From: Malachius bipustulatus
Lineage: Eukaryota; Arthropoda; Insecta; Coleoptera; Melyridae
Direction: 5' to 3'
DNA length: 64,000 nt
NCBI GenBank assembly: GCA_910589415.1
Contig: OU342630.1
Location: forward strand, 93,988,186-94,052,185
In this document: piece after piece, positions 3,601 to 52,190 of the stretch
How positions within the stretch are numbered: the first letter of the stretch is position 1
Layout of the letters: each line of letters begins with the position of its first letter
Made by a program: the position numbers and the translations under genes
The notes under the pieces: model-generated
Databases searched by the model: none
What the model was told of the DNA's origin: nothing
The model's input: the letters and a program-made list of their open reading frames with translations, nothing else

Positions 3601-6600
3601 GGGTGTCTCATTTAAAATAAAGGAGTTGATGGCTACTTTCCGGTGTAACCTGGATATGGGGTTGCAAATATTTTAGTTCACTTCCTCGAAGCTAAAATCA
3701 TAGTACACGTCCTGTATAAATTTTCAGGCTTCTAGTCCAATCAGTTTTCCATTTACGAATGCCCTAATATTCTCGCGTCTCACCTGTATACAGGGTGTCC
3801 CAGACTTAATTGACCAGGCCATATCTCATATACAGGTTGAGATAATCGAGCCGAATAAAAGGCATATTATTATAATTTTTCAAGCTGTATAACATGACAG
3901 CATGAAAACAACCCCCACTCCAACATCCCCTAAGTTACAGCCCCCACCCTTAAAAAAATGAATAGCACCCTGTATATATTTTTGTATATTCAAAACCAGT
4001 ATTCGATTCTCTATTCAGATGATTTTTCAGATTCAAAATTGGTTCACAGATAACCAAATTATTAATTTTATTTCAATCAAAGTAGTCAAGTTTTTTTTTT
4101 TTTTGTTCAATAATTTTTAATACTGAAATAGTTGCTAATACATGGTCATACATACAAATTACAAATTAATAAATGAAACTAATAAATGAAACTAATAATG
4201 AAATACAAAAATAAATAATAATACATAAAAGATAGGCATGCATAATCTAAAATGATTATGTATTATAACAAATGTTCAAAATGTAATCCTTCGGCAGCAA
4301 TGCACATTTCAAATCTTTGCAATAAACTCCTAGTACAGGTTGATATTAACATCTGTTCCGTAATTTGTCTACAAGCATTTCTGATTTTTATTTTCATGTC
4401 ATCGAGATTTTGAGGTTTTGTTGCGTACACTATATCTTTCAGTGCTCCCCAAAGGAAAAAATCAAGGGGAGACAAGTCGGGTGAACGGGCTGGCCATTTA
4501 ATATCAAGAGATGCATTAGCTATGACAGAATTACCGTATCGATTATGTAGATAATTCATTACAGTGTTTGCATTGTGTGCAGGTGCACCATCTTGTTGCC
4601 ACCATATTTGCTGTCTTTCTTGAATTGGTATATCGTCTAATAGTTCAGGTATTATGTTCTCCAAGAACTGTAAATATCGCTCACCATTTAAATTACCTTC
4701 AAAGAAATGAGGTCCTATGATATGTCCGTTAAATATTCCGCACCACACATTCACACCCCAAATTGTTTGGAATCTCGTTTCATCAACCCAGTGTGGGTTA
4801 ACAGGAGACCAGTAATTGGAATTATGACGATTCATTACTCCATTATTATGAAATCTCGCTTCATCACTCCACAAAATCTTGGATAGAAATAATGGATCTT
4901 CATGAAGTTTTATCGACACATGTGCAATAAATTCAAGCCGTCTATTGGTATCACCAGGCCGTAAGTCTTGAACCAAATGAACTTTAAAGGGATGATAAGT
5001 AAAGGATTTTAGTATTCTATGTATGGTACTTTTCGAAATCCCAATTTCAACAGCAAGTCTCCGAATCGATATATGAGGATTAAAATGTACATAAGCCAAA
5101 GCCTGATAACATTTATGACGTTTTCTTCATTTCTTGCTACTCTTACAACAGTATCTCTTTTATTATTTGGGAAATGCCCCACCCTCAATGTCTGTTCAAG
5201 ATGCACGAATGTATTTTCACTTGGAATTTGTCTGTTGGGGTAACGTTCATGATAAACTGCTTTGGCTCTTCTTTTATTTTTCAAACATTCCCCATAAATC
5301 AGAATCATATCTATGTACTCTTCAGGAGTAAACAAATAAGGCATAGTTATTAAATTGTTTGGACTTTATTTATAATAATGACTATCATCTGCCTATTGAA
5401 AACTATGACTAAATTATTTAAAAATTGTGACAGCTAAAGTCATTCGATAAAGTTCGACTAAAAAGTCATGGTCACCTTAAGGAATACATTTTGAACGTTT
5501 GTTGTGATACTTTAGATAATGCATTCCTAACTAGTATGTATTTATCTTTGTATGATTTTCATTTATTACGTTTGTAATTTGTTGTATGATCATGTATTAG
5601 TAACTATTTGAGTATTGAAAATTATTGAAAAAAAAAAAACTTGACTACTTTGATTGAAATAAAATTAATACTTTGGTTATCTGTGAACCAATTTTGAATC
5701 TGAAAAATCATCTGAATAGAGAATCGAATACTGGTTTTGAATATACAAAAATATATACAGGGTGCTATTCATTTTTTTAAGGGTGGGGGCTGTAACTTAG
5801 GGGATGTTGGAGTGGGGGTTGCTTTCATGCTGTCATGTTATACAGCTTGAAAAATTATAATAATATGCCTTTTATTCGGCTCGATTATCTCAACCTGTAT
5901 ATGAGATATGGCCTGGTCAATTAAGTCTGGGACACCCTGTATAAAAGATATCTAAACAATATCTAAAGAAAAGGAAAATCAACAGCTTTAAGCTCATTTA
6001 ACAGAGCTCCGTGATAAGCAATAAACAGATCCAACCAGATTTGAAGACATGGACATTGCATTGCCCTTATGGATGACTTGTGATCATGCCAATATATCAG
6101 AATCTGGTATGGATCTGTCTGCTGTGGAAAAATTGAAGATTTATAAAATATGTCAATGTTCAAAAATATTTATTTTAAACAACATACTTTGACGTGCTTT
6201 CGCATCGAAATGGCGTTCTACTTCATCAAGCACCAAATCCACCGAAGCCAGCACTCTTGCATATTCTTCTTTACTTAACATGGTCTTGTGTTTTGATTCT
6301 TGAGCATAAGATTTCTGAATCAACACATGTTTTATTTCTGGATTCTTTTCCGCGTGTCTCTTCAGGTTTTCAGGACTATTCCTCTCGGCGTCTAGAATAG
6401 TAAAACTTTGAGAGTAATTAAATTATAATACTCTGCTGGAATGAAATTAGTTTCCTTACTTAATATAGCCTTTCGGATGGGCGATATGAAGGGAATTCTT
6501 GGTTTCTTAACGAGCTCTGGTTGATAGAAAGATCCCATGGTAATTATTCCTGCCGGTAATTTATCCACAAGCTGCCTCAAATAGTTCATTTTTTGTCGCA

Positions 6601-7866
6601 TATCCCCATCTAGGTCGATTGGAACCAATCGTGGAGTTTCTCCTGAAAAAATATACGTACTTATCTCAATTTATTAATAACCATAAATGCGTCACCGAGC
6701 AGGTATAATAACCCAAATAAATCGTTTAAAGGATTTTTATTCTCAACGATGTTTTAACTATAGGTATAAATTACGACCTATACAAACGCCAAAGTCGGGG
6801 ATATGCGGAGGGTTGGCGGAAGTATTGACCCAGCACCTGAGCGAGTGGGACGCGATGCTTGGCCGCACCTGTATCATGGCGGGAGCCGGCTACCTCTGTA
6901 AACTTCTGGTTATTGCCTGATACATGGCGGGACATTCCTATGAAAATTCTCGTCCATAAAGGGAAAAGTTGCGTTAGTGTAAATTGTAAATTAAAGTAAA
7001 CGATTAAATTAAAGTAATTGAATCAGTTGAATTAGCTTTCCAAATTATCGGCGAACCCACAGAAGGAAAATACATAACATTATTATATTAAAGACGAAAA
7101 ATGTCTACACACAGAATCTTCGATCATGCATGGCCTATTTTCTCTTATGCCACTATTTCTCAAAAACATTAATACATACCTATGTAGTTAAACAGGGGAA
7201 CAACTGAGTAGGAATGTGGTGATTTTCAGAAGGAACGAACTTGACCACGGGACTGTCTAGATCGATAAGTAAATCTGTACGGTCTAAATTTGTATAGACC
7301 TAGGTAGGGTTCAGTTAATTTTTTTTTTTAGTTAATATTTTATGTACTTTAATTCGCATTTGACCTACCCTCAATTACAATTTACGCATTCTGAAATACA
7401 TCAAACCGTTTCCCAATTACAACTGGAAAATGTGTAGTAGGTAGGTGTACTAGAGTACTTATAATAAATAGGTATCGTAATACAATTAAAAACGCTTCAA
7501 TTATGGCCTCATAATTCGTCTGCTGTAAATAAAAAACTACTTATTATTTGGATGACTCATATTCAGACTACCCAACTTTTCACCAAACTGTCAAGATGAA
7601 AATTGAATAATATAATATTTTTTATTTAAAAAATACTTCAATAATTTTATCATTAGAACAGCTGCCTACTTACCGTCACTGAAATTATCTTCCAGATAGT
7701 CGATTATTCTCACTGAGTCAGGAATGATCTTATCAGAGTCCTGTAGGACAGGTACTTCGCCTCTGGGATTGATTTTGAGGAACCACGGCTCATATTGTTT
7801 TTCTCTAATTATATTAACAGCCCTTGGCTCAAACTGCAAGTTTTTCTCATAAAGAGCCATTAGAAC
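691..7866 (-). CDS. GDAP1: GDAP1-like GST-fold mitochondrial membrane protein
   Basis: Spliced gene with coding exons at 7674-7866, 6460-6642, 6188-6391 and 691-998. Each junction has GT-AG signals and the phase stays constant (phase 1). From the ATG at 7860 it encodes about 293 aa. Exon A gives a GST N-terminal fold (NPRGEVPVL, then IIDYLE). The last exon gives the GST C-terminal helix segment (FTIADVSLTILLNRL), then KRPHVEKYFE, and ends in a hydrophobic tail anchor (APLVLGISVVAAILCSVGAY followed by SLLKKQP). That layout is diagnostic of GDAP1, an outer mitochondrial membrane protein involved in fission and redox balance. Before the ATG the exon reads Val-Leu in frame, as in the family's '...KVL-ALYEK', so the true N-terminus is probably in an upstream exon I could not locate. 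Introns carry a mariner-like element and MITEs. Confidence 0.85.
1031..2893. mobile_element. MITE-like element split by a non-LTR insertion
   Basis: The ends are inverted copies of GGTTATCCTAAATA followed by (A/G)GTGCGA. The right end is an intact ...CCCTG next to TA; the left end has lost the CAGGG form (AAAGG). A non-LTR fragment (about 1103-2272) sits inside, so the host element is older. It lies in the last intron of the GDAP1-like gene. Confidence 0.6.
1103..2272 (+). pseudogene. 3' half of a non-LTR retrotransposon (reverse transcriptase C-terminus)
   Basis: An open frame at 1139-1927 (262 aa) covers the end of a reverse transcriptase. VNDIV is followed by LFAVDTTT, which stands where an LFADDTT catalytic motif is expected. 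Next come LSLNVCKTQ, KFLGVYLDPKLTW and SYPTRGNLN, typical of the thumb and C-terminal region of CR1/jockey-group elements. The second catalytic Asp appears lost (AVDT), so it is inactive. The frame shifts near an A-run at about 1915-1923, after which the homologous tail (NYLTSKAF) continues in another frame. The 3' end is a TTA repeat at about 2252-2268, a common non-LTR tail. The element is 5'-truncated. Confidence 0.75.
2990..3786. mobile_element. foldback MITE (family A)
   Basis: Imperfect inverted arms of roughly 180-300 bp: 2990 onward matches the reverse complement of about 3610-3786, including the ATTTTAAATG and GTAACC/GGTTAC blocks. TA flanks the right end (3787-3788). The core contains 'AAATCGCAATTTTC' and 'AAGATATCGGAAAACCG', which recur near 40.1 kb and 61.8 kb. 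Confidence 0.6.
3791..5939 (-). mobile_element. Tc1/mariner-like DNA transposon with long TIRs
   Basis: Full-length 2,149-bp element starting CAGGGTGTCCCAGACTTAAT and ending with its inverse, flanked by TA at 3789-3790 and 5940-5941. The terminal inverted repeats run about 390 bp (3791 to about 4180, and about 5550 to 5939) with few differences. This is far longer than the ~30 bp of classical mariner. The transposase lies on the minus strand and is broken by one frameshift. Confidence 0.85.
4263..5344 (-). pseudogene. Tc1/mariner-like transposase, single frameshift
   Basis: The N-terminal part (ATG at 5344, about 80 aa, FTPEEYIDMILIYGE then RAKAVYHERYPNR) is a helix-turn-helix of the DUF4817 type. 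The C-terminal part (to 4263, about 280 aa) contains a second HTH (ISIRRLAVEIGISKSTIHRI) and the DDD catalytic domain: LWSDEARF, WWQQDGAPAHN and RSPDLSPLDFFLWG. Counted by eye, 90 residues separate the first two Asp and 42 the last two. A one-base loss near 5100-5105 puts the two halves in different frames, so this copy should not make full-length transposase. Total length of about 360 aa matches the family. Confidence 0.85.
6785..6930. other. GC-rich island inside a GDAP1-like intron
   Basis: About 145 bp of clearly GC-richer sequence (CGGGGATATGCGGAGG ... GGCGGGAGCCGGC) in otherwise AT-rich intron DNA. It could be a short transposon or SINE remnant. I recognised no protein, tRNA-like box or repeat partner in the window. 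Confidence 0.3.
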
Positions 7867-14749: not shown

Positions 14750-15770
14750 TATTTGATATTTCTTAGTTCTATAAAAAGTCCAATTTTATTTTATTTCGTA
14801 AAAATTATGGTCAATAATATGTACCTATGTTTTATTTACTTATAAAATCTTCAAAGCTCTTATTTACAAAAAAATTGTTTCAGCGTTCACGTATCATCAG
14901 AATTATTTTGCGTAGATGCAATGACCGTCATCGACATCTAATAAATGCTAATATTAAAAATCCACCCCGTCATTTTCCAATTTCCATCATTTCACAATCG
15001 CACCACTATTCGCTCTCTCGCTCGCTCAGGGTTGGTGCTAATTAATTAGTTCATCACTCTCATCGATGCTCGGTTTTAATCGCATAATGGAGGTCGGTTG
15101 ACGACAGCGCAACGCAAGCGACCAGCGTTGCCAGACGTAACATATAATATGGAATATTGTAACAATTTAAAGATTTCCATGAATTTCAAGATTTTTTTAA
15201 TAAATAATATGTAACAAAATCATCAACGTTCCTGATTCATAAGTACATTATAAATAGTTTTTTTTAAGTAGGTAGGTAACAACCTCTCTTTCAATAACAA
15301 AGAAAGAAAACATTTTTCTAAATTTTTTGAAATACAAAAACAATAATTCCAGTTTTCAAAGTCACATCAAATTTTAGTTTATGCTGAGTTTATTTTATTT
15401 TTATTGTAACATCATTTTCTGATCAATCTAATATCGACAATCCGGGAATCATAGTTTCTTTTCTTCTATAATATGGCAACCCTGAACAGGTACAAGACCG
15501 TTACCGTTAGGCAATACCATCACCACGGCACGTTAGGCACGGGGAGTAGTAGCGACTCCGACTCCAGCAGCCAGGTCGCCTTTATACTTTATTGTTTGAC
15601 TTTTGATTTGAATGTTTTGTTTTAGTGTATTTTTTAACAAAAAAATACACTATTGAGGACGACATCACTTTTCGAAAATCACCCAAACTCATCAAATGTC
15701 CACCGATCATGACCCCCAGATCACGAAAAAGTGGTTTTCCAAAATTCACCTGCCCACGATATATATATAT
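14750..15770. other. non-coding stretch before the ribozyme array
   Basis: AT-rich with a short GC-richer patch (15085-15140). No gene, RNA or repeat partner clearly recognised. It ends in a (TA)n run that borders the array. Confidence 0.4.
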
Positions 15771-15888
15771 ATATTTACTTAGAAAAATATTAACCGAGCC
15801 GCTGTATGAAAATACAAAATAATAATAATAATGGGCTTGGCTCTTCGAGCTCTCAGGCAGTCTACAAAACAGAGCCTTCCAAACAATC

Positions 15889-15954
15889 CTATCGAAATCA
15901 CAGACGGACCGTTTCGCTCTTATTATGAGCTCATCAGTGTGATATATCGAATAG
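15889..15954 (-). ncRNA. type I hammerhead ribozyme, copy 1
   Basis: Read on the minus strand: stem I outer CTAT, then inner ATCACA; core CTGATGA; stem II GCTC-ATAATAA-GAGC; core GAA; stem III ACG-GTC-CGT; cleavage-site C; then TGTGAT and ATAG closing stem I. All conserved core bases are present, and the asymmetric internal loop in stem I is typical of natural type I ribozymes. Predicted self-cleavage is 3' of the C at 15903. Confidence 0.88.
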
Positions 15955-16321
15955 ATACATCTGGAGGATGTAATTGCAGACTGCCATCGGTCTCGAGACG
16001 TTATTAAAATCCTTCATCCGGTTCACAGTGACCCGGAGAAAATCGCTACATCTACCGATGGATGACGGAACTACCGACCTGACGGCAACTCGCGCCATTC
16101 AGAAAAAGTGGCCTCGTGCAGTTTTATATGCTATGAGGCATCGACTTTTCGTCTGGCTTTGCTGCGCAGCCAGCAGATGTCACCATCATTGCCCAATGAG
16201 AGTATAAGTACTTAGAAAAATATTAACCGAGCCGCTGTATGAAAATACAAAATAATAATAATAATGGGCTTGGCTCTTCGAGCTCTCAGGCAGTCTACAA
16301 AACAGAGCCTTCCAAACAATC

Positions 16322-16387
16322 CTATCGAAATCACAGACGGACCGTTTCGCTCTTATTATGAGCTCATCAGTGTGATATATCGAATAG
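16322..16387 (-). ncRNA. type I hammerhead ribozyme, copy 2
   Basis: Same structure as copy 1, exactly 433 bp on. Predicted cleavage 3' of the C at 16336 (minus strand). Confidence 0.88.
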
Positions 16388-16754
16388 ATACATCTGGAGG
16401 ATGTAATTGCAGACTGCCATCGGTCTCGAGACGTTATTAAAATCCTTCATCCGGTTCACAGTGACCCGGAGAAAATCGCTACATCTACCGATGGATGACG
16501 GAACTACCGACCTGACGGCAACTCGCGCCATTCAGAAAAAGTGGCCTCGTGCAGTTTTATATGCTATGAGGCATCGACTTTTCGTCTGGCTTTGCTGCGC
16601 AGCCAGCAGATGTCACCATCATTGCCCAATGAGAGTATAAGTACTTAGAAAAATATTAACCGAGCCGCTGTATGAAAATACAAAATAATAATAATAATGG
16701 GCTTGGCTCTTCGAGCTCTCAGGCAGTCTACAAAACAGAGCCTTCCAAACAATC

Positions 16755-16820
16755 CTATCGAAATCACAGACGGACCGTTTCGCTCTTATTATGAGCTCAT
16801 CAGTGTGATATATCGAATAG
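16755..16820 (-). ncRNA. type I hammerhead ribozyme, copy 3
   Basis: Same structure, third copy. Predicted cleavage 3' of the C at 16769 (minus strand). Confidence 0.88.
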
Positions 16821-17187
16821 ATACATCTGGAGGATGTAATTGCAGACTGCCATCGGTCTCGAGACGTTATTAAAATCCTTCATCCGGTTCACAGTGACCC
16901 GGAGAAAATCGCTACATCTACCGATGGATGACGGAACTACCGACCTGACGGCAACTCGCGCCATTCAGAAAAAGTGGCCTCGTGCAGTTTTATATGCTAT
17001 GAGGCATCGACTTTTCGTCTGGCTTTGCTGCGCAGCCAGCAGATGTCACCATCATTGCCCAATGAGAGTATAAGTACTTAGAAAAATATTAACCGAGCCG
17101 CTGTATGAAAATACAAAATAATAATAATAATGGGCTTGGCTCTTCGAGCTCTCAGGCAGTCTACAAAACAGAGCCTTCCAAACAATC

Positions 17188-17253
17188 CTATCGAAATCAC
17201 AGACGGACCGTTTCGCTCTTATTATGAGCTCATCAGTGTGATATATCGAATAG
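17188..17253 (-). ncRNA. type I hammerhead ribozyme, copy 4
   Basis: Same structure, in the last minus-strand unit before the array inverts. Predicted cleavage 3' of the C at 17202. Confidence 0.88.
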
Positions 17254-17783
17254 ATACATCTGGAGGATGTAATTGCAGACTGCCATCGGTCTCGAGACGT
17301 TATTAAAATCCTTCATCCGGTTCACAGTGACCCGGAGAAAATCGCTACATCTACCGATGGATGACGGAACTACCGACCTGACGGCAACTCGCGCCATTCA
17401 GAAAAAGTGGCCTCGTGCAGTTTTATATGCTATGAGGCATCGACTTTTCTGAGAGCTCGAAGAGCCAAGCCCATTATTATTATTATTTTGTATTTTCATA
17501 CAGCGGCTCGGTTAATATTTTTCTAAGTACTTATACTCTCATTGGGCAATGATGGTGACATCTGCTGGCTGCGCAGCAAAGCCAGACGAAAAGTCGATGC
17601 CTCATAGCATATAAAACTGCACGAGGCCACTTTTTCTGAATGGCGCGAGTTGCCGTCAGGTCGGTAGTTCCGTCATCCATCGGTAGATGTAGCGATTTTC
17701 TCCGGGTCACTGTGAACCGGATGAAGGATTTTAATAACGTCTCGAGACCGATGGCAGTCTGCAATTACATCCTCCAGATGTAT

Positions 17784-17849
17784 CTATTCGATATATCACA
17801 CTGATGAGCTCATAATAAGAGCGAAACGGTCCGTCTGTGATTTCGATAG
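17784..17849 (+). ncRNA. type I hammerhead ribozyme, copy 5
   Basis: CTAT 17784-17787 pairs with ATAG 17846-17849. ATCACA 17795-17800 pairs with TGTGAT 17836-17841. CTGATGA is at 17801-17807, stem II at 17808-17822 and GAAA at 17823-17826. A 3-bp stem III ends in CGT (17832-17834), and the cleavage C is at 17835. The full three-way junction is intact. Confidence 0.9.
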
Positions 17850-18216
17850 GATTGTTTGGAAGGCTCTGTTTTGTAGACTGCCTGAGAGCTCGAAGAGCCA
17901 AGCCCATTATTATTATTATTTTGTATTTTCATACAGCGGCTCGGTTAATATTTTTCTAAGTACTTATACTCTCATTGGGCAATGATGGTGACATCTGCTG
18001 GCTGCGCAGCAAAGCCAGACGAAAAGTCGATGCCTCATAGCATATAAAACTGCACGAGGCCACTTTTTCTGAATGGCGCGAGTTGCCGTCAGGTCGGTAG
18101 TTCCGTCATCCATCGGTAGATGTAGCGATTTTCTCCGGGTCACTGTGAACCGGATGAAGGATTTTAATAACGTCTCGAGACCGATGGCAGTCTGCAATTA
18201 CATCCTCCAGATGTAT

Positions 18217-18282
18217 CTATTCGATATATCACACTGATGAGCTCATAATAAGAGCGAAACGGTCCGTCTGTGATTTCGATAG
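18217..18282 (+). ncRNA. type I hammerhead ribozyme, copy 6
   Basis: Same as copy 5, one 433-bp period on. Predicted cleavage after 18268. Confidence 0.88.
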
Positions 18283-18649
18283 GATTGTTTGGAAGGCTCT
18301 GTTTTGTAGACTGCCTGAGAGCTCGAAGAGCCAAGCCCATTATTATTATTATTTTGTATTTTCATACAGCGGCTCGGTTAATATTTTTCTAAGTACTTAT
18401 ACTCTCATTGGGCAATGATGGTGACATCTGCTGGCTGCGCAGCAAAGCCAGACGAAAAGTCGATGCCTCATAGCATATAAAACTGCACGAGGCCACTTTT
18501 TCTGAATGGCGCGAGTTGCCGTCAGGTCGGTAGTTCCGTCATCCATCGGTAGATGTAGCGATTTTCTCCGGGTCACTGTGAACCGGATGAAGGATTTTAA
18601 TAACGTCTCGAGACCGATGGCAGTCTGCAATTACATCCTCCAGATGTAT

Positions 18650-18715
18650 CTATTCGATATATCACACTGATGAGCTCATAATAAGAGCGAAACGGTCCGT
18701 CTGTGATTTCGATAG
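18650..18715 (+). ncRNA. type I hammerhead ribozyme, copy 7
   Basis: Same as copy 5, two periods on. Predicted cleavage after 18701. Confidence 0.88.
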
Positions 18716-19082
18716 GATTGTTTGGAAGGCTCTGTTTTGTAGACTGCCTGAGAGCTCGAAGAGCCAAGCCCATTATTATTATTAATTTGTATTTTCATAC
18801 AGAGGCTCGGTTAATATTTTTCTAAGTACTTATACTCTCATTGGGCAATGATGGTGACATCTGCTGGCTGCGCAGCAAAGCCAGACGAAAAGTCGATGCC
18901 TCATAGCATATAAAACTGCACGAGGCCACTTTTTCTGAATGGCGCGAGTTGCCGTCAGGTCGGTAGTTCCGTCATCCATCGGTAGATGTAGCGATTTTCT
19001 CCGGGTCACTGTGAACCGGATGAAGGATTTTAATAACGTCTCGAGACCGATGGCAGTCTGCAATTACATCCTCCAGATGTAT

Positions 19083-19148
19083 CTATTCGATATATCACAC
19101 TGATGAGCTCATAATAAGAGCGAAACGGTCCGTCTGTGATTTCGATAG
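19083..19148 (+). ncRNA. type I hammerhead ribozyme, copy 8
   Basis: Same as copy 5, three periods on. Predicted cleavage after 19134. Confidence 0.88.
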
Positions 19149-19256
19149 GATTGTTTGGAAGGCTCTGTTTTGTAGACTGCCTGAGAGCTCGAAGAGCCAA
19201 GCCCATTATTATTATATATATTTATATATATATATATATATATAGATCTTTCTATC

Positions 19257-21700: not shown

Positions 21701-21704
21701 AATG

Positions 21705-22510
21705 AAGGCTATTAATACGCGAGTATGATGGTTAAGATACGAGCCGTAGGCGAGTGTCTTAACCATCATAAGAGCGTATTAATAGCCATTATCTGCGAGT
21801 TCCATACACTATTTTTTCTACGACCCTTTTTTATTTCATCGAAAAGATTGAAAAATTATATATTTTAACAATGACCCGTGTACAATTGCGGATCATTGAG
21901 GTTAAGATAGGTTGCTTACGCATATTAGGTACCAAATTTTCTTTTCGTCGCTAAGATTATTCTGCTGAGACATGTTTTAGTATCAAGTTTAAGGGCACTA
22001 CTCACTACTGCGTAATTTTTATTATGCGAAGTTCGAATTCCGAATTTTACGCTTTGATTTTCAGTAATAATTTTAATAACATTGTCAGCCATTAATTACG
22101 ATATTGCTTACCTGCGCACGCGACGGTCACGGTCGCAGCGTTGCCGCTTTGAATACTATATCACGGACCGCTACGAATAATATAATACTTTATCTTCCTA
22201 TCTTTTACAGATATACCTACCTATCAAATTAATTAAGGTAACATAAAATCTTGATAAATGTTCTTTGAATGTTACTTATGTTCTAAATTAAATAAACGTT
22301 CAGATTTTTTTTCAGAAATACAGAACTTATATCACAAGGCAATTTTTGTCGTGAGTATGACAACTCTGTGACTTCGGTTGGTTTGCCGACCCGATTGTGA
22401 GCGAAAGGGAACCGATTCGATTGCAAATGCTCCTCTGCCATTGGATAGCTTGACCAGTGCTTTAATGAAAATTTGTATCTTAATGAGACCCATTAAAGCA
22501 CTGGTGATTC
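21705..22510. other. short palindromes in non-coding DNA
   Basis: Two short hairpins are visible. One is TTAAGATACGAGCC...GGCGAGTGTCTTAA near 21732-21763. The other is AGTGCTTTAATG...CATTAAAGCACT near 22456-22502. Both look like remnants of small inverted-repeat elements. Confidence 0.4.
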
Positions 22511-30205: not shown

Positions 30206-30815
30206 CAGGGTGTCGCACGACGTGACTGCCATAGCTTAAGGGTAGGTGTAGTTTTTCAAGGCGATTCAGGATCTGGTTTTGAAATTTTCCTGAGGCCCTT
30301 CGTTTCGATTATACAGGGTGATTTGTGCAATTTGCCGAAATCTTTGATGAGCGATATCTTTTGAACGAATTGATCGAATTTTACGAAATTTGGTAGATAT
30401 GCTCTACTAATGATACTTATTACCTCGCATTTTTCGCCGATTCGAAAACTTTTACATTAGCATTTTTCACGTAGTTTTAGAAAATGGCACCAAACTTTGA
30501 ATAAAATGCATACATAGGCTGAACTTTTCGACAAAACCGAAAGATATCAAAATAATAAGTACGGCCCTGCAGTTGTCGAATCGGCGAAAAATGCGAGGTA
30601 TTAAGTGTCATTAGTAGAGCATATCTACCAAATTTCGTTAAATTCGATCAATTCGTTCAAAAGATATCGCTCACCAAAGATTTCGGCAAATTGCACAAAT
30701 CACCCTGTATAATCGAAACGAAGGGCCTCAGGAAAATTTCAAAACCAGATCCTGAATCGCCTTGAAAAACTACACCTACCCTTAAGCTATGGCAGTCATG
30801 TCGTGGGACACCCTG
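30206..30815. mobile_element. foldback MITE with ~240-bp arms
   Basis: 610 bp flanked by TA. Begins CAGGGTGTCGCACGACGTGA and ends in the inverse. The arms include CTTAAGGGTAGGTGTAGTTT and GATCAATTCGTTCAAAAGAT. They are near-perfect, with a ~130-bp loop. A solo end of a related element is at 34,990-35,010. Confidence 0.85.
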
Positions 30816-33664: not shown

Positions 33665-34535
33665 TTAGAATTTAGACACTCAACTTCAAATTGCATTTTA
33701 AAATATTACAGATAAGTACAAGTGTACCTACTATGCATAGCAACCGTTGCCGACGCTATGGTTACTTACAAATGCGTGCATACAAATAAAAGAAATGTCA
33801 TAATAATTATTATTGATTGCAATTTCTGAACAATTATTATTATCTTGAATTCTTGATTGGGTACTTATTTTTTATTAATATGTTTGCCAGTAATAAAAAG
33901 AATATGAAAAAATCTTACTACCAATAATTTTGTCTGATTTCATCATGAGGAAATGTAGTTCAATGAGAGAATGTAAGTACCGGTAAGTACAGAGAAAGTA
34001 GATAGAATTACTTTTGACACGTTTCCATGTAAACAATCACTTTTAACACTGTCACCTGTCGTCGAAAGTGCGACTTTTAATGGCAGTTGCACAAAATTTT
34101 TTTTTTGTACAACTGCCATTTTTGTCACACTTTTAACGACAGCTGACAGTGTTAAAAGTGATTGTTTACATGGAAGCGTGTTAAAAATACTTTTAACACG
34201 AGTGTTAAAAATATTTTTAACACTGGTGTTGTCGTATTAAAAATATTTCTATCTACTTTTTCTGTACATTCTCTTTTTAAACTACATTTTCTCATGATGA
34301 AATTAGACAAAATTGTTTTAGTTTGACAAATTGTTTGACAAAATAATTGTTCAGAAATTGCAATCAATAATTATTATTATGACATCTCTTTTATTTGTAT
34401 GCACGCATTTGTTAGTAACCATAGCGTCGGCAACGGTTGCTATGCATAGTACACTTGTACTTATCTGTAATATTTTAAAATGCTGTTTGAAGTTGAGTGT
34501 CATTCTAAATTCATCAATTTTATTATCATAATAGA
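33661..34535. mobile_element. long palindromic foldback element
   Basis: Near-continuous inverted repeat about 875 bp long, centred near 34100 on ATGGCAGTTG...CAACTGCCAT. Outer landmarks such as ACACTCAACTTCAAA, TACAAGTGTAC and GCCGACGCTATGGTTAC recur inverted at 34420-34500. No coding capacity. A transcript would form a long hairpin. Confidence 0.8.
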
Positions 34536-43779: not shown

Positions 43780-45347
43780 TGTGACGGTTATATTTTGTCA
43801 CCTTCTAATAATGGTTACGGTGGTTATTATTTATTTTATTTATTGTAAATAAAAACAACGGGGTTATGTTATTTGTTTATATTTTGTTTATTATTTCTGA
43901 TTTATTTATTTTAGTGGCTGTTATTCTGTGGTCTTGTCTTGTCAGTGTTGTTTGTCATTGTCATTATTAATGGTGGGAACTGAATGTTCTTTTTATTTTT
44001 GCAAGAGGAATCTTGATCCTGCTGACCGGAGACTATCAGTTTTTTTATCAAAAAAGTTCGAACTATCTAATCACCCTGATTAAAAGTAGAAAAAAAAGGA
44101 AACTAAGAGGAAAAATTCAACAAAAATTACAATTTAATTATTAAAATAAAAATCCCCTCAGAGGAGAACTTTAAAACCTTTTCTGGTCGTTAATAATTAT
44201 TGAAACCCAGCTTCACATTAAACTCATAGGGAGTTTCAACGTGTGTTGGAGTAGGAGAAGCTGGATTTCGCTAGGCCGACCGTGCAGGGTACTGGTGGTA
44301 CGGTCATTCTTCTTAGAAGGATAAAAATTTATTACGGCAAGAAAACTCTCCAAGGATTGTTCCTTAAACGCCCTCCTTCTACATCGGAGGTGAGTAATTG
44401 CCAGTCCACTTTACTACGACACTTATTTTAGTTAATCAAAAAGGATATTGCTGGCACGCTTTGTGTCAGCCGAACTTTCCTATAGTCTCCGACAGCAGGC
44501 TACAGATGTTCTCTTTGCAGGGTTGTCCGTCCAGGGTATTTGTTCATCCACGGTAACTTTTCGGACGTGGTAACTGTCGATTTACTGATGTTGAAAACTG
44601 ATGATTTACTTTTGCGGCACGGAGTCACCAGAGTAGAGTCTCCATCTTGTCTTTGGCACCGGCTGTCCCTGCCTGACCGAGCCCGACGCACAGTCGTTGG
44701 TGAGCGCAACCCGGCCCGCACAGGTATTTACTAATTGTCAATTACCTCCACTGCCACAGGAGCCCCATTGGCACCGAGTCCAGGACTTCACCAGTGTTTT
44801 ATTTCATATTTTAGTTACTAATAGTGTGAACCAACAGCAGCTGCTCGCGGGGTAGATTATTAGGGACTTAGCGTAGACTAGAAATTAGTCTTTGTAATAG
44901 TACCTTCGTGATATATGCCGATACGTACCTGGAAGGGTCGATGTAGCTTGTTTCAAGTTATAATATAAACTAGGCACTCCCGTGGAGCTGATTGTTTTAT
45001 TACTATCTATTCTGGCCAACCTTAAACAACCCCTGTTAGGCAGAAAACCCTGCGGCCGTGTTTGCATTAGAAAATAACCATCTATTTGAACCATTGTTCG
45101 CTGGCAACCGTGGTGGTAACTATTTATATTTACTTGATTTTTCATCATAATAGTCATAAATACAAGATACAATAACACAATAATAGTAAAAAAATTATAA
45201 GCAACGCCACCGCCACCGCCACCAGAAGTATTCTTTTATTATAATTAATCGGACTCGACAGGTGGCGTCGACAGCTAGGTGACAACTCGCCCCCTGAGCT
45301 AGCCGTTTTCGCCTAATCCACGCTCAGGCTCACGGTTCCGTGTGGCA
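43780..45347 (+). repeat. 5' LTR
   Basis: Starts TGTGACGG, ends TGTGGCA, 1,568 bp, which is long for this class. Contains a CCACCG triplet run near 45207. Short ORFs inside are duplicated in the other LTR and have no recognised product. Confidence 0.9.
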
Positions 45348-45350
45348 ATT

Positions 45351-45363
45351 TGGCGCCCAACGT
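45351..45363 (+). promoter_or_regulatory. primer binding site (tRNA-Lys type)
   Basis: TGGCGCCCAACGT begins three bases after the 5' LTR and is complementary to the 3' end of an animal tRNA-Lys including CCA. Confidence 0.8.
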
Positions 45364-45756
45364 CAATATTACCCGTTTTGTTTGTTTTACGTGTTTGGTG
45401 TTTTTTTCTTTCTGGTTTCTTCTTCCTTGTTGTTTCAGTTTTCTTTTTTGTTCTTTTCAGGAAGCCAGGGAGGGGAATAAATGTATAGTTGCTTAAATAT
45501 ATGCTTGTGAATACAATATAATTTTATTTAATTATTATTTCAACACATTTATTATTATTGATAATTTAGATCACTGCATGCCATAAACCTATTTTATTTA
45601 CATTTTATTTACATATAGGTATTTTTTTTTCTTCTCGTATTTTCTGGTATTTTTTTATATAGGTATTTACATTGATTTATTTGCTGGATAATTTACAATT
45701 AACTGTACATATTTTATTTGGGGATAAGGTATATTACATAACTATTATCGTCGACC

Positions 45757-47412
45757 ATGGAGATAAATCGTTTGTTAGGTGACGAGCTAACCTATGAGTT
45801 GCTTGTGAGAGGTTGCGAACTAGGTACGACAGTGGCAGAAAAAAGGAATTTACTTCGACAGGCAAAACAGTCGGAAAAGCAGGGCTTACCACCTGTCACA
45901 TCGCATAAATTTGATCCAGAAAAGGAGTTGGAGTTGTGTTCGGCAAAGTTGGAGGAACTCACAGGTTGTGTTCAGGAGTTTGTTCCAGCGAATAGGGACA
46001 ACGAGTATCGTAGGATCAAGTCTAGGCTTCTTCATGTGCAGGGTAGGTTGGATAGAATAGAGCCACCGACAAATGCGCTACAGATGAAAAAGAATAATCT
46101 TTTAACGTTCTGCGCAGGAGTGTGTGAAGCACTCGAGGACGCTTTGAAGATTGCTAACCTTACGTCCAGGAGTAGGTCCGAGGCTTCCATTTTGGACGAG
46201 CCAAATTTGCTGTTGCCAGAGGTAACTGGGCCGGCGATCGGTCCTGTTCAGGTGGCAGCTAGTTCAGATCAGACATCGGGAACCACCTCTAGTGTCCCTA
46301 CTGCTGATCTGATTGATTTTGGGATACCACCAGACAATGTGGTGGATCTGAGGCCGGATCATGCGGGTGCTTCCATGCAGGGCCTGCGAGCCGATTCAAT
46401 TTCCCAGCAACTGAATCTGTTGCATTTCGCCCCGAGCGCAGGTTACGCTCCCCCACCAACTCAGTCACGACGAGTCTCATTTTCAACATCGTCGAACGAT
46501 AGGCATGCCCCCCTTATAGAAAGCGTCCCTGACGACGTGCCTTCTTTTCCGTATCGGGGATCCTCCACTTTCGTTGAACCCCCATCACAGCGAACGGAAT
46601 TTGCACCCGTAGGTAGGTCTCACAGTTTCCATCACAACTTCTGGAAATGGGGACTAACCTTTAGTGGAAAAGGTAGTGTGACGTCATTCTTGGAAGACAT
46701 CGAAGAGATGGCGGAAGCTAGGCGAGTCACGACGGGTGAACTGTTCCAGTCTATATCAGAATTTCTGAAGGGCGATGCCTTACTCTGGTATAGACCCCGA
46801 AAACACACATTGGTGGATTGGATGGACTTCAAGAGGAGGTTAAGGGATACGTTTCTACCTCCTGATTATGAGATCAATCTCATGGACGATATTCGGCGAC
46901 GGACACAGGGTCAGGATGAAAAGTTGATCCTCTATGTGGCAAGAATGCAGGGAATGTTCGCGAAGCTCACAGCTCCACCACCTGAGTGCGAACAAGTCCA
47001 GCTTATGCGGAGAAACCTTTTGCCCCACCTCCAGACTGCGTTGGCCTTGCAGGACATACGCACGATGGACGATTTAATTTCCGTTGGTCGGATCGTCGAG
47101 GAGTCGCAATGGAGAGCAAAGCAGTATTGCCCTCCAAAAACCGACGCGAACCTCCTACAAGAACCTAGCATGGCATATCAGCCGTCTAGTAAACCACCCA
47201 AGAGGCTGGCCGCTGTCCAGAGTAGTCCCACTGTTGCAGAGATTCAAACTCAGAACAAGGCCGTCATCTGTTGGGCATGTAAACAGCCTGGCCATGTTAG
47301 AATGTCCTGCCCGCAAGCGACCACGTTAGCATGCTATAAGTGTGGTACCAAGGGGTATACCACACGTACTTGTCCATCTTGTTCGGGAAACGGCAAACCG
47401 AGTCAACAGTAA
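45757..47412 (+). CDS. gag: Gag polyprotein of the gypsy element
   Basis: 551 aa from the ATG at 45757; structural protein that packages the RNA and assembles the particle. The middle part (about residues 295-470) holds the capsid-like retrotransposon gag domain (WKWGLTFSGKG, LLWYRPRKHTLVDWMDFKRR, LILYVARMQGMF). The C-terminus has two zinc knuckles. The first, C505-x2-C508-x4-H513-x4-C518, is canonical. The second, C526-x2-C529-x4-Y534-x4-C539, has Tyr in place of His. The frame is intact. Its last 73 bases overlap the pol frame, and the frameshift heptamer is at 47385. Confidence 0.9.
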   Translation: MEINRLLGDELTYELLVRGCELGTTVAEKRNLLRQAKQSEKQGLPPVTSHKFDPEKELELCSAKLEELTGCVQEFVPANRDNEYRRIKSRLLHVQGRLDRIEPPTNALQMKKNNLLTFCAGVCEALEDALKIANLTSRSRSEASILDEPNLLLPEVTGPAIGPVQVAASSDQTSGTTSSVPTADLIDFGIPPDNVVDLRPDHAGASMQGLRADSISQQLNLLHFAPSAGYAPPPTQSRRVSFSTSSNDRHAPLIESVPDDVPSFPYRGSSTFVEPPSQRTEFAPVGRSHSFHHNFWKWGLTFSGKGSVTSFLEDIEEMAEARRVTTGELFQSISEFLKGDALLWYRPRKHTLVDWMDFKRRLRDTFLPPDYEINLMDDIRRRTQGQDEKLILYVARMQGMFAKLTAPPPECEQVQLMRRNLLPHLQTALALQDIRTMDDLISVGRIVEESQWRAKQYCPPKTDANLLQEPSMAYQPSSKPPKRLAAVQSSPTVAEIQTQNKAVICWACKQPGHVRMSCPQATTLACYKCGTKGYTTRTCPSCSGNGKPSQQ

Positions 47413-50400
47413 GCCGGCTGTGTGACTCTGGTTCGGCTAAACCGGCTAGTTCCAAAATAAATCATGTGCTGGATTATATTCTGTCCCATTCTAAGGAAGA
47501 TTGTCGCCCCTATCTAGAGGTATCGATCTTCGGTTGTAAGATGCTTGGTCTTTTGGATTCTGGTGCAACCGCAACATTTGTCGGTCAGAAGGGGTACACT
47601 GTGCTCAAAGAGCTAGGGCTGAAGTTGCAGCCGAACTCTACAATGGTTACCGTAGCGAATGGCAGCTCGTGTGCTTGTTTAGGAGTGGTTAGAGCTCCTG
47701 TTCGTTTGCTGGACCGTATTCACCTGATCGACATATTGGTCATACCGGAGTTGCCGCACACCATGATCCTGGGTATTGATTTTTGGATCGCAATGGATGT
47801 GGTGCCGGATCTCCGTAGTGATGTTTGGCAGTTTGGGAGCGGAGGAATCGGAAGACCGGCCATTTGTGGAATCCAGGCGCATGCTAATCTTAGTCCCGAA
47901 CAGGAGGAACAACTAACTCAACTCGTGGACGAAAAATTCTCAAAAATGGGCACTGGACTGGGATACACCAATTTAGTGGAGCATGAAATTGTGACAGATG
48001 CTAAACCGATTAAGCAACGGTACTACCCAATGTCACCCATCAAACAGGCCATTGTAGATCAAGAGCTCAACACGATGCTGGAGCTTGATGTCGTGGAGCC
48101 CTCGAAGAGTCCCTGGTCTTCACCGTTGCTTCTCATCCCTAAGAAGGACAAAAGTTATAGGGTATGCATAGATTATAGGGCATTAAATGCAGTAACGAAG
48201 AAGGATGCTTACCCCATCCCGTATGTGTCCTCCATTCTTGAAAGGCTTCGCGGAGCCAAGTTTCTAAGTTCGATGGACATCAGGAGCGCCTACTGGCAGG
48301 TTGGTGTTAAGGAGTCAAGCCGCGAATATACGGCCTTCACTGTCCCTGGGAGAGGCTTGTTCCAGTTTAAGCGTATGCCATTCGGGCTTACCAATGCTCC
48401 TGCAACCTGGTCCAGGCTCGTCGATGGTGTCCTTGGAGCGGATTTGGAGCCGCATGTCTTCGTCTATCTCGATGACGTGATAATCATCAGCCCTGACTTT
48501 GAGACCCACTTGACAATCTTGGGTAAGGTGTTCGACCGCCTCACCGAAGCGGGTCTGACCGTTAAAAGAGAGAAGTGTAACTTCTGCAGACCCTCGCTCA
48601 AATATTTGGGCTATGTAGTCGATTCATCAGGACTGCACGTCGACCCAGAAAAGGTGGAAGCGATTCTCAATATCGAGGTTCCAAAAACAGCGTCTCAGGT
48701 ACGATCACTGCTTGGAGTCTGTGGTTGGTACCGCAAATTCGTACCAGACTTCTCTTCGCTTGTGGCGCCTCTAACGAGATTGACAAAGAAAAATGTTGGT
48801 TTTGCCTGGACAGATGAGTGCGAAGCGGCGTTTAGGGCGCTGAAGGACCGGCTGGTCTCGGCCCCGATATTGACCTGTCCGGACTTTGGGCAGCCGTTTA
48901 TTTTGCAAACGGATGCGTCGGCTTACGGGATAGGCGCCGTTTTGACTCAGTTGTTCGAGGGTGAGGAAAAGGTAATTTGTTATCTCTCGAGGTCCTTGAC
49001 GAGGCAGGAGCAACGTTACACCACCACAGAGCGAGAGTGTCTTGCGGTCATCTGGGCCGTGGAAAAACTGCGACACTATTTGGAAGGGGTGAACTTCACG
49101 ATCATCACAGATCATTACTCGCTGGTTTGGCTGGATCGCCAAAAGGATCCTACGGGACGGATAGCACGCTGGGCTATTCGACTGCAACCCTACGATTATA
49201 CAATCATTCATCGGAAAGGGAAAGATCATATAGTACCGGATTACCTGTCCAGAAGTGTCCCTCAGATCGACCTCATCGACACAGCTGTTGAGACCTTTTC
49301 CAACGCCGATGATCAGTGGTACCAGAAACTGAAGGAAAAGGTAGAGACCAACCCTCGCAAGTATCCTCAGTTTCGTATCCAGCAGGGTGTACTTTATAAG
49401 TACGTGAAACTTCGGCAACCTGATGTCATGGGTACATCCGAGCATTGGAAAGTGGTGGTACCGAAACCGCATAGGCGACAGCTCATCGCTCGACACCACG
49501 ATGATGTCACCGCGGGACATCTAGGAATCTACAAAGTTTATTGGAGGCTCCATGAAAAGTATACGTGGCCCAAAATGCAGGCAGATGTGGCGAAGTATGT
49601 TCGTTCCTGCCAGACTTGCGCAGCACATAAGCCTGAACAGAAGGCTCCGGTTGGTCTGATGGGAGGCGGGCATGATGTCGGTAGGCCCTGGCAGACGATA
49701 AGCCTGGATTTTGTCGGCCCATTGCCGCGTTCTTCTAAGATGAACACGCATCTCCTGGTAGTGAGCGACTATTTCTCTAAATATGTTGTCTTGTTCCCTG
49801 TGAGAGCAGCGACCGCTGAGGTGCTATGCCGACATGTGGAAGCTGGAGTTTTTCTCGTTTATGGAGTGCCTCGTAACATTATCTGCGACAATGGTGTGCA
49901 GATGAGGAGCAGGGTTTTTAAGTCGTTGTGCGACAGGTATCATGTAGAGATTTCATACACCCCACTCTACTATCCTCGGGCTAACCCCTGTGAACGAGTC
50001 AACAAAACTGTCAAGACCATGATCTCGTGTTATGTCAAGGACAACCAGAGAAAATGGGATGACCAGCTACCGGCCATCAGTTGTGCCATTCGAACGGCAC
50101 GAAGTGAAGTGACCGGCTATTCCCCATTCTTCATCAATTTTGGTAGGCCTTATGTTGGCGACGGACGGGAGCACCAGGACCCCGGAGGAAACTTGAATGA
50201 CCCGTCTACTCTAGAATCCTTAATGGAAAAGCGTCGATTGGGCTATCAGCGGATGTTCAACGAGGTGAAACAGCGTCTTATCGTAGCTCATGAGCGTTAT
50301 AGGAAAGTTTATAATTTGCGACGACGGCCAGTTCATTTCCAAGAGGGCGACAGAGTGTGGAAGAGAAGCAAGATCCTTTCTGATGCCTCCCAGGCTATTA

Positions 50401-50561
50401 ATGCCAAACTTGCGCCAAAGTACCAAGGGCCCTACAACATAAAAACAAAATTAGGGAGATGGACATATGAACTGACAGACGATACAGGGCAGAGCAAAGG
50501 GGTTTGGAATGTCCAAGACCTTAAGCCGTACTGTGACGGAGAGACGATTGACCCAGGGTAG
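47340..50561 (+). CDS. pol: Pol polyprotein of the gypsy element (made by -1 frameshift)
   Basis: The open frame begins right after a TAA at 47337-47339 and has no ATG there, so Pol is expected as a Gag-Pol fusion entering this frame at about 47388. Counting from 47340: protease DSG at 73-75; reverse transcriptase with YLDD at 376-379; RNase H with Asp525, a Glu in TERE (564-566) and Asp591; integrase zinc finger with His720, His727, Cys757 and Cys760; integrase catalytic Asp790, Asp850 and Glu885 (34 residues between the last two); GPY motif at 1030-1032. All key residues are present and there is no internal stop. The domain order RT-RNaseH-IN marks Ty3/gypsy. No chromodomain and no env follow. 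Confidence 0.95.
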   Translation: MWYQGVYHTYLSILFGKRQTESTVSRLCDSGSAKPASSKINHVLDYILSHSKEDCRPYLEVSIFGCKMLGLLDSGATATFVGQKGYTVLKELGLKLQPNSTMVTVANGSSCACLGVVRAPVRLLDRIHLIDILVIPELPHTMILGIDFWIAMDVVPDLRSDVWQFGSGGIGRPAICGIQAHANLSPEQEEQLTQLVDEKFSKMGTGLGYTNLVEHEIVTDAKPIKQRYYPMSPIKQAIVDQELNTMLELDVVEPSKSPWSSPLLLIPKKDKSYRVCIDYRALNAVTKKDAYPIPYVSSILERLRGAKFLSSMDIRSAYWQVGVKESSREYTAFTVPGRGLFQFKRMPFGLTNAPATWSRLVDGVLGADLEPHVFVYLDDVIIISPDFETHLTILGKVFDRLTEAGLTVKREKCNFCRPSLKYLGYVVDSSGLHVDPEKVEAILNIEVPKTASQVRSLLGVCGWYRKFVPDFSSLVAPLTRLTKKNVGFAWTDECEAAFRALKDRLVSAPILTCPDFGQPFILQTDASAYGIGAVLTQLFEGEEKVICYLSRSLTRQEQRYTTTERECLAVIWAVEKLRHYLEGVNFTIITDHYSLVWLDRQKDPTGRIARWAIRLQPYDYTIIHRKGKDHIVPDYLSRSVPQIDLIDTAVETFSNADDQWYQKLKEKVETNPRKYPQFRIQQGVLYKYVKLRQPDVMGTSEHWKVVVPKPHRRQLIARHHDDVTAGHLGIYKVYWRLHEKYTWPKMQADVAKYVRSCQTCAAHKPEQKAPVGLMGGGHDVGRPWQTISLDFVGPLPRSSKMNTHLLVVSDYFSKYVVLFPVRAATAEVLCRHVEAGVFLVYGVPRNIICDNGVQMRSRVFKSLCDRYHVEISYTPLYYPRANPCERVNKTVKTMISCYVKDNQRKWDDQLPAISCAIRTARSEVTGYSPFFINFGRPYVGDGREHQDPGGNLNDPSTLESLMEKRRLGYQRMFNEVKQRLIVAHERYRKVYNLRRRPVHFQEGDRVWKRSKILSDASQAINAKLAPKYQGPYNIKTKLGRWTYELTDDTGQSKGVWNVQDLKPYCDGETIDPG
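47385..47447 (+). promoter_or_regulatory. programmed -1 frameshift signal (slippery site plus pseudoknot)
   Basis: Heptamer GGGAAAC at 47385-47391 lies in gag phase as G GGA AAC and in pol phase as GGG AAA C. After an 8-nt spacer, GAGTCA (47400-47405) pairs with TGACTC (47423-47428). AGCCGG in the intervening loop (47412-47417) pairs with CCGGCT (47442-47447), giving an H-type pseudoknot. Spacing and composition match known retroviral -1 sites. Confidence 0.8.
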
Positions 50562-50607
50562 TCTGTCATCATGACAGGTCTCCGAGGTCACAACCTTTTG
50601 TTGCCTC

Positions 50608-50622
50608 GAAGGAAGGGGAGGG
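50608..50622 (+). promoter_or_regulatory. polypurine tract
   Basis: GAAGGAAGGGGAGGG ends at the base before the 3' LTR; plus-strand primer site. Confidence 0.85.
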
Positions 50623-52190
50623 TGTGACGGTTATATTTTGTCACCTTCTAATAATGGTTACGGTGGTTATTATTTATTTTATTTATTGTAAATAAAAACA
50701 ACGGGGTTATGTTATTTGTTTATATTTTGTTTATTATTTCTGATTTATTTATTTTAGTGGCTGTTATTCTGTGGTCTTGTCTTGTCAGTGTTGTTTGTCA
50801 TTGTCATTATTAATGGTGGGAACTGAATGTTCTTTTTATTTTTGCAAGAGGAATCTTGATCCTGCTGACCGGAGACTATCAGTTTTTTTATCAAAAAAGT
50901 TCGAACTATCTAATCACCCTGATTAAAAGTAGAAAAAAAAGGAAACTAAGAGGAAAAATTCAACAAAAATTACAATTTAATTATTAAAATAAAAATCCCC
51001 TCAGAGGAGAACTTTAAAACCTTTTCTGGTCGTTAATAATTATTGAAACCCAGCTTCACATTAAACTCATAGGGAGTTTCAACGTGTGTTGGAGTAGGAG
51101 AAGCTGGATTTCGCTAGGCCGACCGTGCAGGGTACTGGTGGTACGGTCATTCTTCTTAGAAGGATAAAAATTTATTACGGCAAGAAAACTCTCCAAGGAT
51201 TGTTCCTTAAACGCCCTCCTTCTACATCGGAGGTGAGTAATTGCCAGTCCACTTTACTACGACACTTATTTTAGTTAATCAAAAAGGATATTGCTGGCAC
51301 GCTTTGTGTCAGCCGAACTTTCCTATAGTCTCCGACAGCAGGCTACAGATGTTCTCTTTGCAGGGTTGTCCGTCCAGGGTATTTGTTCATCCACGGTAAC
51401 TTTTCGGACGTGGTAACTGTCGATTTACTGATGTTGAAAACTGATGATTTACTTTTGCGGCACGGAGTCACCAGAGTAGAGTCTCCATCTTGTCTTTGGC
51501 ACCGGCTGTCCCTGCCTGACCGAGCCCGACGCACAGTCGTTGGTGAGCGCAACCCGGCCCGCACAGGTATTTACTAATTGTCAATTACCTCCACTGCCAC
51601 AGGAGCCCCATTGGCACCGAGTCCAGGACTTCACCAGTGTTTTATTTCATATTTTAGTTACTAATAGTGTGAACCAACAGCAGCTGCTCGCGGGGTAGAT
51701 TATTAGGGACTTAGCGTAGACTAGAAATTAGTCTTTGTAATAGTACCTTCGTGATATATGCCGATACGTACCTGGAAGGGTCGATGTAGCTTGTTTCAAG
51801 TTATAATATAAACTAGGCACTCCCGTGGAGCTGATTGTTTTATTACTATCTATTCTGGCCAACCTTAAACAACCCCTGTTAGGCAGAAAACCCTGCGGCC
51901 GTGTTTGCATTAGAAAATAACCATCTATTTGAACCATTGTTCGCTGGCAACCGTGGTGGTAACTATTTATATTTACTTGATTTTTCATCATAATAGTCAT
52001 AAATACAAGATACAATAACACAATAATAGTAAAAAAATTATAAGCAACGCCACCGCCACCGCCACCAGAAGTATTCTTTTATTATAATTAATCGGACTCG
52101 ACAGGTGGCGTCGACAGCTAGGTGACAACTCGCCCCCTGAGCTAGCCGTTTTCGCCTAATCCACGCTCAGGCTCACGGTTCCGTGTGGCA
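50623..52190 (+). repeat. 3' LTR
   Basis: Same length as the 5' LTR, TG...CA ends, followed by the ATTT duplication at 52191-52194. Confidence 0.9.

Follow-up and report, generated by a model that had tools for sequence, protein, structure and literature searches.

Organization of the locus and its surroundings

The window, that is, the whole 64,000-nucleotide stretch of contig OU342630.1 of the beetle Malachius bipustulatus that was analyzed, contains a 433-bp repeat with eight hammerhead copies that are split between two opposed, head-to-head arrays (15776-19215; Table 1). The minus-strand array shows no mismatches to the plus-array unit across 1,674 bases, and the plus-strand array has two (18785 and 18803) across 1,767 bases; all units agree save for these two substitutions in 3.4 kb. 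Both substitutions fall within the last complete unit of the plus array, which would be a unit made early if reverse transcription started at the right flank. Within each array, the motifs are spaced by 433 bp, and the arms of the inverted repeat, 1.4-1.6 kb long, are 99-100% complementary. There are no further copies of the unit in the 64-kb window, where the leftover blastn matches are 12-28 nt long (E >= 0.046). The earlier note described the locus as an eight-unit array of 433-bp hammerhead repeats at 15777-19214; the eight motifs and their spacing stand, whereas the change of orientation, with two opposed arrays meeting at 17449, had been omitted, and the measured bounds are 15776-19215.

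Table 1. Coordinates and strands of the arrays, hammerhead motifs, predicted monomer, junction and flanking tracts
Feature	Position	Strand	Remarks
Left flanking (AT)8 tract, presumed target	15759..15774	.	adjoins array end 15776
Minus-strand array	15776..17449	-	4 hammerheads in 3.87 units of 433 bp; RNA-sense 3' end at left TA tract
Type I hammerhead 1	15897..15943	-	RF00163 31.7 bits; core 15903-15937
Type I hammerhead 2	16330..16376	-	RF00163 31.7 bits; core 16336-16370
Type I hammerhead 3	16763..16809	-	RF00163 31.7 bits; core 16769-16803
Type I hammerhead 4	17196..17242	-	RF00163 31.7 bits; core 17202-17236
Head-to-head junction	17449..17449	.	one base common to both arrays; monomer positions 47 and 186
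Plus-strand array	17449..19215	+	4 hammerheads in 4.08 units of 433 bp; RNA-sense 3' end at right TA tract
Type I hammerhead 5	17795..17841	+	RF00163 31.7 bits; core 17801-17835; predicted cut after 17835
Predicted 433-nt monomer between two successive cut sites	17836..18268	+	
Type I hammerhead 6	18228..18274	+	RF00163 31.7 bits; core 18234-18268; predicted cut after 18268
Type I hammerhead 7	18661..18707	+	RF00163 31.7 bits; core 18667-18701; predicted cut after 18701
Type I hammerhead 8	19094..19140	+	RF00163 31.7 bits; core 19100-19134; predicted cut after 19134
Right flanking (TA)11 tract, presumed target	19223..19244	.	near array end 19215

The surroundings are a mixture of probable host exons and other mobile elements. 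About 200 bp to the left of the array, the plus strand may contain a first coding exon (15473-15577); should this exon be genuine, the array would be intronic and read-through could transcribe it. Further probable host-gene exons are found on the minus strand at 691-1017, with a GST C-terminal domain, and at 6153-6670; these exons may belong to a GDAP1-like gene, and the other two ORFs of the group have no Pfam match. Probable short-chain dehydrogenase exons occupy 58011-58904, with adh_short at 58623-58901. A Tc3/mariner-like transposase is encoded at 4263-5365 in two overlapping frames (DDE_3 and DUF4817), its closest relative being 69% identical and the named ones, among the best 120 of 955 matches, coming from aphids and an ant. 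A probable LTR retrotransposon spans 44486-52078, with a gag-like ORF (45742-47412) and an overlapping pol-like ORF (47340-50561) flanked by a duplicated set of short ORFs, the two sets lying 6,843 bp from one another; their translations are identical, which suggests that the LTRs of this element are young. Most of the listed relatives of the gag-like protein carry PF03732, and the named ones among its 65 matches belong to the beetles Callosobruchus, Rhamnusium, Molorchus and Exocentrus. An inverted repeat at 21702-21792, with 44-nt arms that are 82% complementary and a 3-nt spacer, resembles a MITE hairpin, and the weak matches to MIR7504 (57692-57815), MIR7127 (34040-34158) and MIR8007 (30415-30608), all far under the gathering scores, are probably repeat hairpins; a match to MIR7996 (E 4.6) is at chance level and was discarded.

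The hammerhead motifs

The 35-nt core CTGATGA-GCTC-ATAATAA-GAGC-GAAACGGTCCGTC occurs exactly eight times, four on each strand, and is embedded in a 73-nt stretch that is identical in all eight copies; in 100 shuffles, the core has no match even with up to three mismatches allowed. A type I descriptor that specifies the core, stem II of at least 3 bp, GAA, stem III of at least 3 bp with A15.1-U16.1, H17 and stem I of at least 5 bp matches these eight sites alone within the window, and finds nothing on either strand of 300 dinucleotide shuffles of the window. All eight sites thus contain the conserved core CUGANGA / GAA / U-H17 along with the three stems, of which stem I is open. The elements noted previously, namely CTGATGA, stem II (GCTC/GAGC), a 3-bp stem III (here ACG/CGT) and stem I (ATCACA/TGTGAT), are all present at each of the eight sites, and an outer part of stem I (CTAT/ATAG) can be read off the sequence. 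An asymmetric stem I loop and a loop II of 7 nt are present as candidate partners for a loop-loop contact.

All eight copies are detected by the Rfam model RF00163 (Hammerhead_1) with E 3.5e-5 in a 3.6-kb search, and a whole-window scan with E <= 1 yields no hammerhead beyond these eight places. In the same scan, the related model RF02275 (HH9) matches the same eight places, reaching 28 bits where the gathering score is 52, and these matches are not counted as a separate finding. The scan of the whole window at the gathering level reports nothing. A covariance score below threshold had been set beforehand as an outcome that would refute the interpretation in the earlier note, and formally this is the outcome, with 31.7 against 34 bits for RF00163; the gathering score is, however, a curated cut-off for listing and not a structural feature, and the shortfall of 2.3 bits is judged to be outweighed by the E-value, the complete core and the eight identical copies.

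Taken as a 3-bp hairpin with a 3-nt loop, stem III is unstable (+1.3 kcal/mol), and its pair probability in the predicted circle is 0, so that single motifs may cut poorly. Of the 9 positions in the segment formed by helix III and its loop, 8 are self-complementary, and a pairing of two such segments is predicted at -11.3 kcal/mol; given this self-complementarity, neighboring units of one transcript may work as a hammerhead dimer, a mode of action reported for the axolotl retrozyme (PMC7229834). The same study describes a mussel retrozyme that cuts although it is devoid of most of the nucleotides involved in the contact between loops I and II.

The monomer as RNA and its coding content

Folded as a circle, the predicted monomer has a free energy of -130.3 kcal/mol, compared with a mean of -113.6 for shuffled sequences, none of which (0 of 200; z -3.1) is as low. 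The paired fraction, 0.66, does not stand out, since 44 of 200 shuffles equal or exceed it, and the monomer is therefore not claimed to be highly self-paired. Strand-specific folding was considered and dropped because the antisense strand, too, has a lower energy than shuffles of its own sequence (z -2.8, 1 of 200), indicating that good folding is not confined to one strand. In the predicted circle, the pair probabilities are 0.5-0.96 for stem I and 0.99 for stem II, and forcing the full hammerhead costs 3.1 kcal/mol.

The GC content of the unit is 44.6%, and the longest stop-free stretch round the 433-bp circle amounts to 86 amino acids; the two listed ORFs of the unit have no Pfam match. Patterns for the A-box and B-box of Pol III promoters have no match on either of the unit's strands, in agreement with a 2020 review according to which promoters appear to be absent from retrozymes (PMC7761336). 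Outside the beetle sequence, the 27-nt core pattern has no matches in the viral_contigs and genome_contigs collections, the 32-nt unit pattern has none in viral_contigs, and a blastn search with 952 bases finds nothing in phages or plasmids; these collections consist of viruses, phages, plasmids and prokaryotes, so that the absence of homologues from them says little about animals.

Outer ends, junction and flanks

The window contains five alternating TA tracts with a length of 10 nt or more, and each of the two outer array ends is found no further than 8 nt from one of them. Altogether, 158 of the 64,000 window positions are within 8 nt of such a tract, and the probability that two random ends both are is ~6e-6 if the ends are independent, with the proviso that the limits on length and distance were picked after the locus had been seen. 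Inside TA tracts, the limits of a target site duplication cannot be drawn. With the monomer numbered from 1 at the base that follows the cut, the outer ends correspond to positions 81 and 127, both AU-rich, and the inner ends to positions 47 and 186, the two sides of the junction being 139 nt apart within the unit.

None of the four array ends coincides with the cut site. This observation speaks against ends that derive from ribozyme-cut linear monomers, although weakly, because four random ends would often miss the cut, too. Immediately beside the junction, there is the sequence GAGCTC (17453-17458) and a small GCTC-GAA-GAGC hairpin (17455-17465). A symmetrical fold-back as the source of the inversion is disfavored because the sides of the junction differ by 139 nt in the unit. 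The flanks (~2 kb on each side) share only 12-25 nt matches (E >= 0.14).

Probable assignment to the retrozymes and rival explanations

The locus probably represents a recent insertion, by reverse transcription, of a non-autonomous, non-coding metazoan retrozyme. The locus consists of tandem repeats within the 150-450 bp range, each with a type I hammerhead, with a GC content below 50% and no Pfam match in the unit ORFs, and in its unit size, GC content, tandem layout and lack of coding domains it matches the non-LTR retrozymes of corals, mussels and axolotl (Cervera and de la Pena 2020, PMC7229834). These retrozymes likewise have a type I hammerhead in each tandem unit, units of a few hundred bp with low GC and no coding region, and stems I and II that are free to form in the predicted circle (PMC7229834). 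The 433-bp unit is near the top of the 150-450 bp range cited there for the repeats and exceeds the ~170-400 nt RNAs reported for retrozymes (PMC7229834). Opposed arrays at one site, as seen here, are not described for metazoan retrozymes in the available portion of that report. The near-identity of the copies, combined with the lack of any further copy in the window, is what a recent multi-unit insertion would be expected to leave. The retrozyme-like interpretation proposed in the earlier note, which missed the inversion, is well supported in its core by sequence and anatomy.

The mirror-image layout itself could have been created by a fold-back read, a known artefact of sequencing and assembly, or by a mis-joined repeat, all the more as inverted repeats with arms of this length and identity are hard to assemble. 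A fold-back would, however, duplicate the flanking DNA, and the flanks are not duplicated; with the offset at the junction also against it, an assembly artefact appears exceedingly improbable. Another candidate is an ordinary hammerhead satellite similar to pDo500, the repeat of ~500 bp from cave crickets, which would have expanded by unequal crossing-over or via extrachromosomal circles and would then have undergone inversion or inverted duplication. Near-identical head-to-tail units are the outcome of recent amplification of this kind, and pDo500 of Dolichopoda is indeed an insect tandem repeat with a hammerhead (PMC2837043, PMC2808323), a satellite family that is common to several species; the word 'inverted' is absent from the accessible text of PMC2837043. 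What makes a satellite origin unlikely is that the locus is small and isolated, with no other copy in the window, that both outer ends are found at TA tracts, and that the four array ends each fall at a different position of the unit, which would require several separate breaks.

Penelope-like elements have a similar arrangement, in that their pseudo-LTRs carry type I hammerheads and are found in tandem and head-to-head copies at AT-rich targets (PMC11167929, PMC3846280, PMC7761336), and the repeats analyzed here could accordingly be pseudo-LTRs left over from such an element that lost its coding part. The hammerheads of Penelope elements are, however, described as minimal variants without helix III or loop contacts (PMC7761336), whereas helix III here consists of 3 bp. 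These elements are further distinguished by a reverse transcriptase with a GIY-YIG domain, and no telomerase-like reverse transcriptase with a GIY-YIG endonuclease was found either in the unit ORFs, which match no family, or in the 30 of the 94 listed window ORFs that were scanned. The unit is also far too short for an ORF of the 842-amino acid type known from Penelope-like elements (PMC3846280). A Penelope remnant thus seems very improbable, and a retrozyme insertion is the reading pursued below.

A possible route of insertion

For a retrozyme, the anatomy of the locus can be accommodated by the following scheme. Multimeric sense RNA from some active copy would cut itself at each hammerhead, giving 433-nt monomers that a host ligase could close, by analogy with the retrozymes that have been tested. 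A reverse transcriptase, most likely that of a Penelope-like element, would break a (TA)n tract, and both DNA ends of the broken tract would prime cDNA synthesis on AU-rich parts of the retrozyme RNA. Each cDNA would run for about four units, either round the circle or along an uncut multimer, and the joining of the two cDNA ends in the middle would produce the two head-to-head arrays.

Priming from both ends of one break is suggested by the head-to-head orientation, with the RNA 3' sides facing the target on both sides; the presence of about four units per side implies a circular template that was read repeatedly or an uncut multimer, and the 139-nt offset at the junction fits two separate primings. 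Considered alone, the two-sided priming step is the preferred mechanism, albeit a tentative one that is drawn from one locus. That the locus as a whole is the footprint of one retrotransposition, in which both ends of the broken TA tract served as primers, the circle was copied about four times from each and the cDNAs were joined head-to-head, is somewhat more doubtful.

The biochemistry of Penelope-like elements offers points on both sides. In vitro, a Penelope-like protein cuts the two DNA strands and also extends them, with a preference for AT-rich DNA (PMC11167929). In the same system, mutating the hammerhead left insertion normal, the main substrate was uncut RNA, and the starting point of reverse transcription was an AC-rich stem loop rather than an AU-rich stretch (PMC11167929), results that count against a circular template and against AU-rich starts on the RNA. 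A study of a bdelloid rotifer describes head-to-head as the commonest arrangement among inverted Penelope elements and cites a preference for simple AT-rich targets (PMC3846280). The authors of the rotifer study favor self-priming on an antisense template, based on palindromes at the junctions (PMC3846280). At the beetle locus, the distance between the two junction sides within the unit fits two separate primings, but, within the retrozyme reading, the inversion may likewise have originated from priming of the cDNA on itself, as the GAGCTC sequence and the small hairpin adjoining the junction would allow.

Implications

A transcript that reads through the locus from either side would, owing to the inversion, be half sense and half antisense. 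Such a transcript would hold a long, near-perfect hairpin, a possible source of silencing small RNAs, and, as predicted from the layout, this hairpin could hinder the folding of the ribozymes.

An opposed double array of a retrozyme at one site was not found described in a targeted, non-exhaustive search of the literature. According to the 2020 review, retrozyme repeats lack any conserved motif from which a mobilizing partner could be deduced (PMC7761336), and Penelope-like elements are their proposed but unproven movers. A young insertion with readable ends can address two questions, namely what enzyme mobilizes animal retrozymes and whether its template is circular RNA. The two-sided model predicts that the same genome contains other head-to-head pairs, AT-rich targets, and starts that cluster in one AU-rich part of the unit. 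If the locus is indeed the footprint of one two-sided event, it would provide a structural link showing that Penelope-like machinery mobilizes animal retrozymes.
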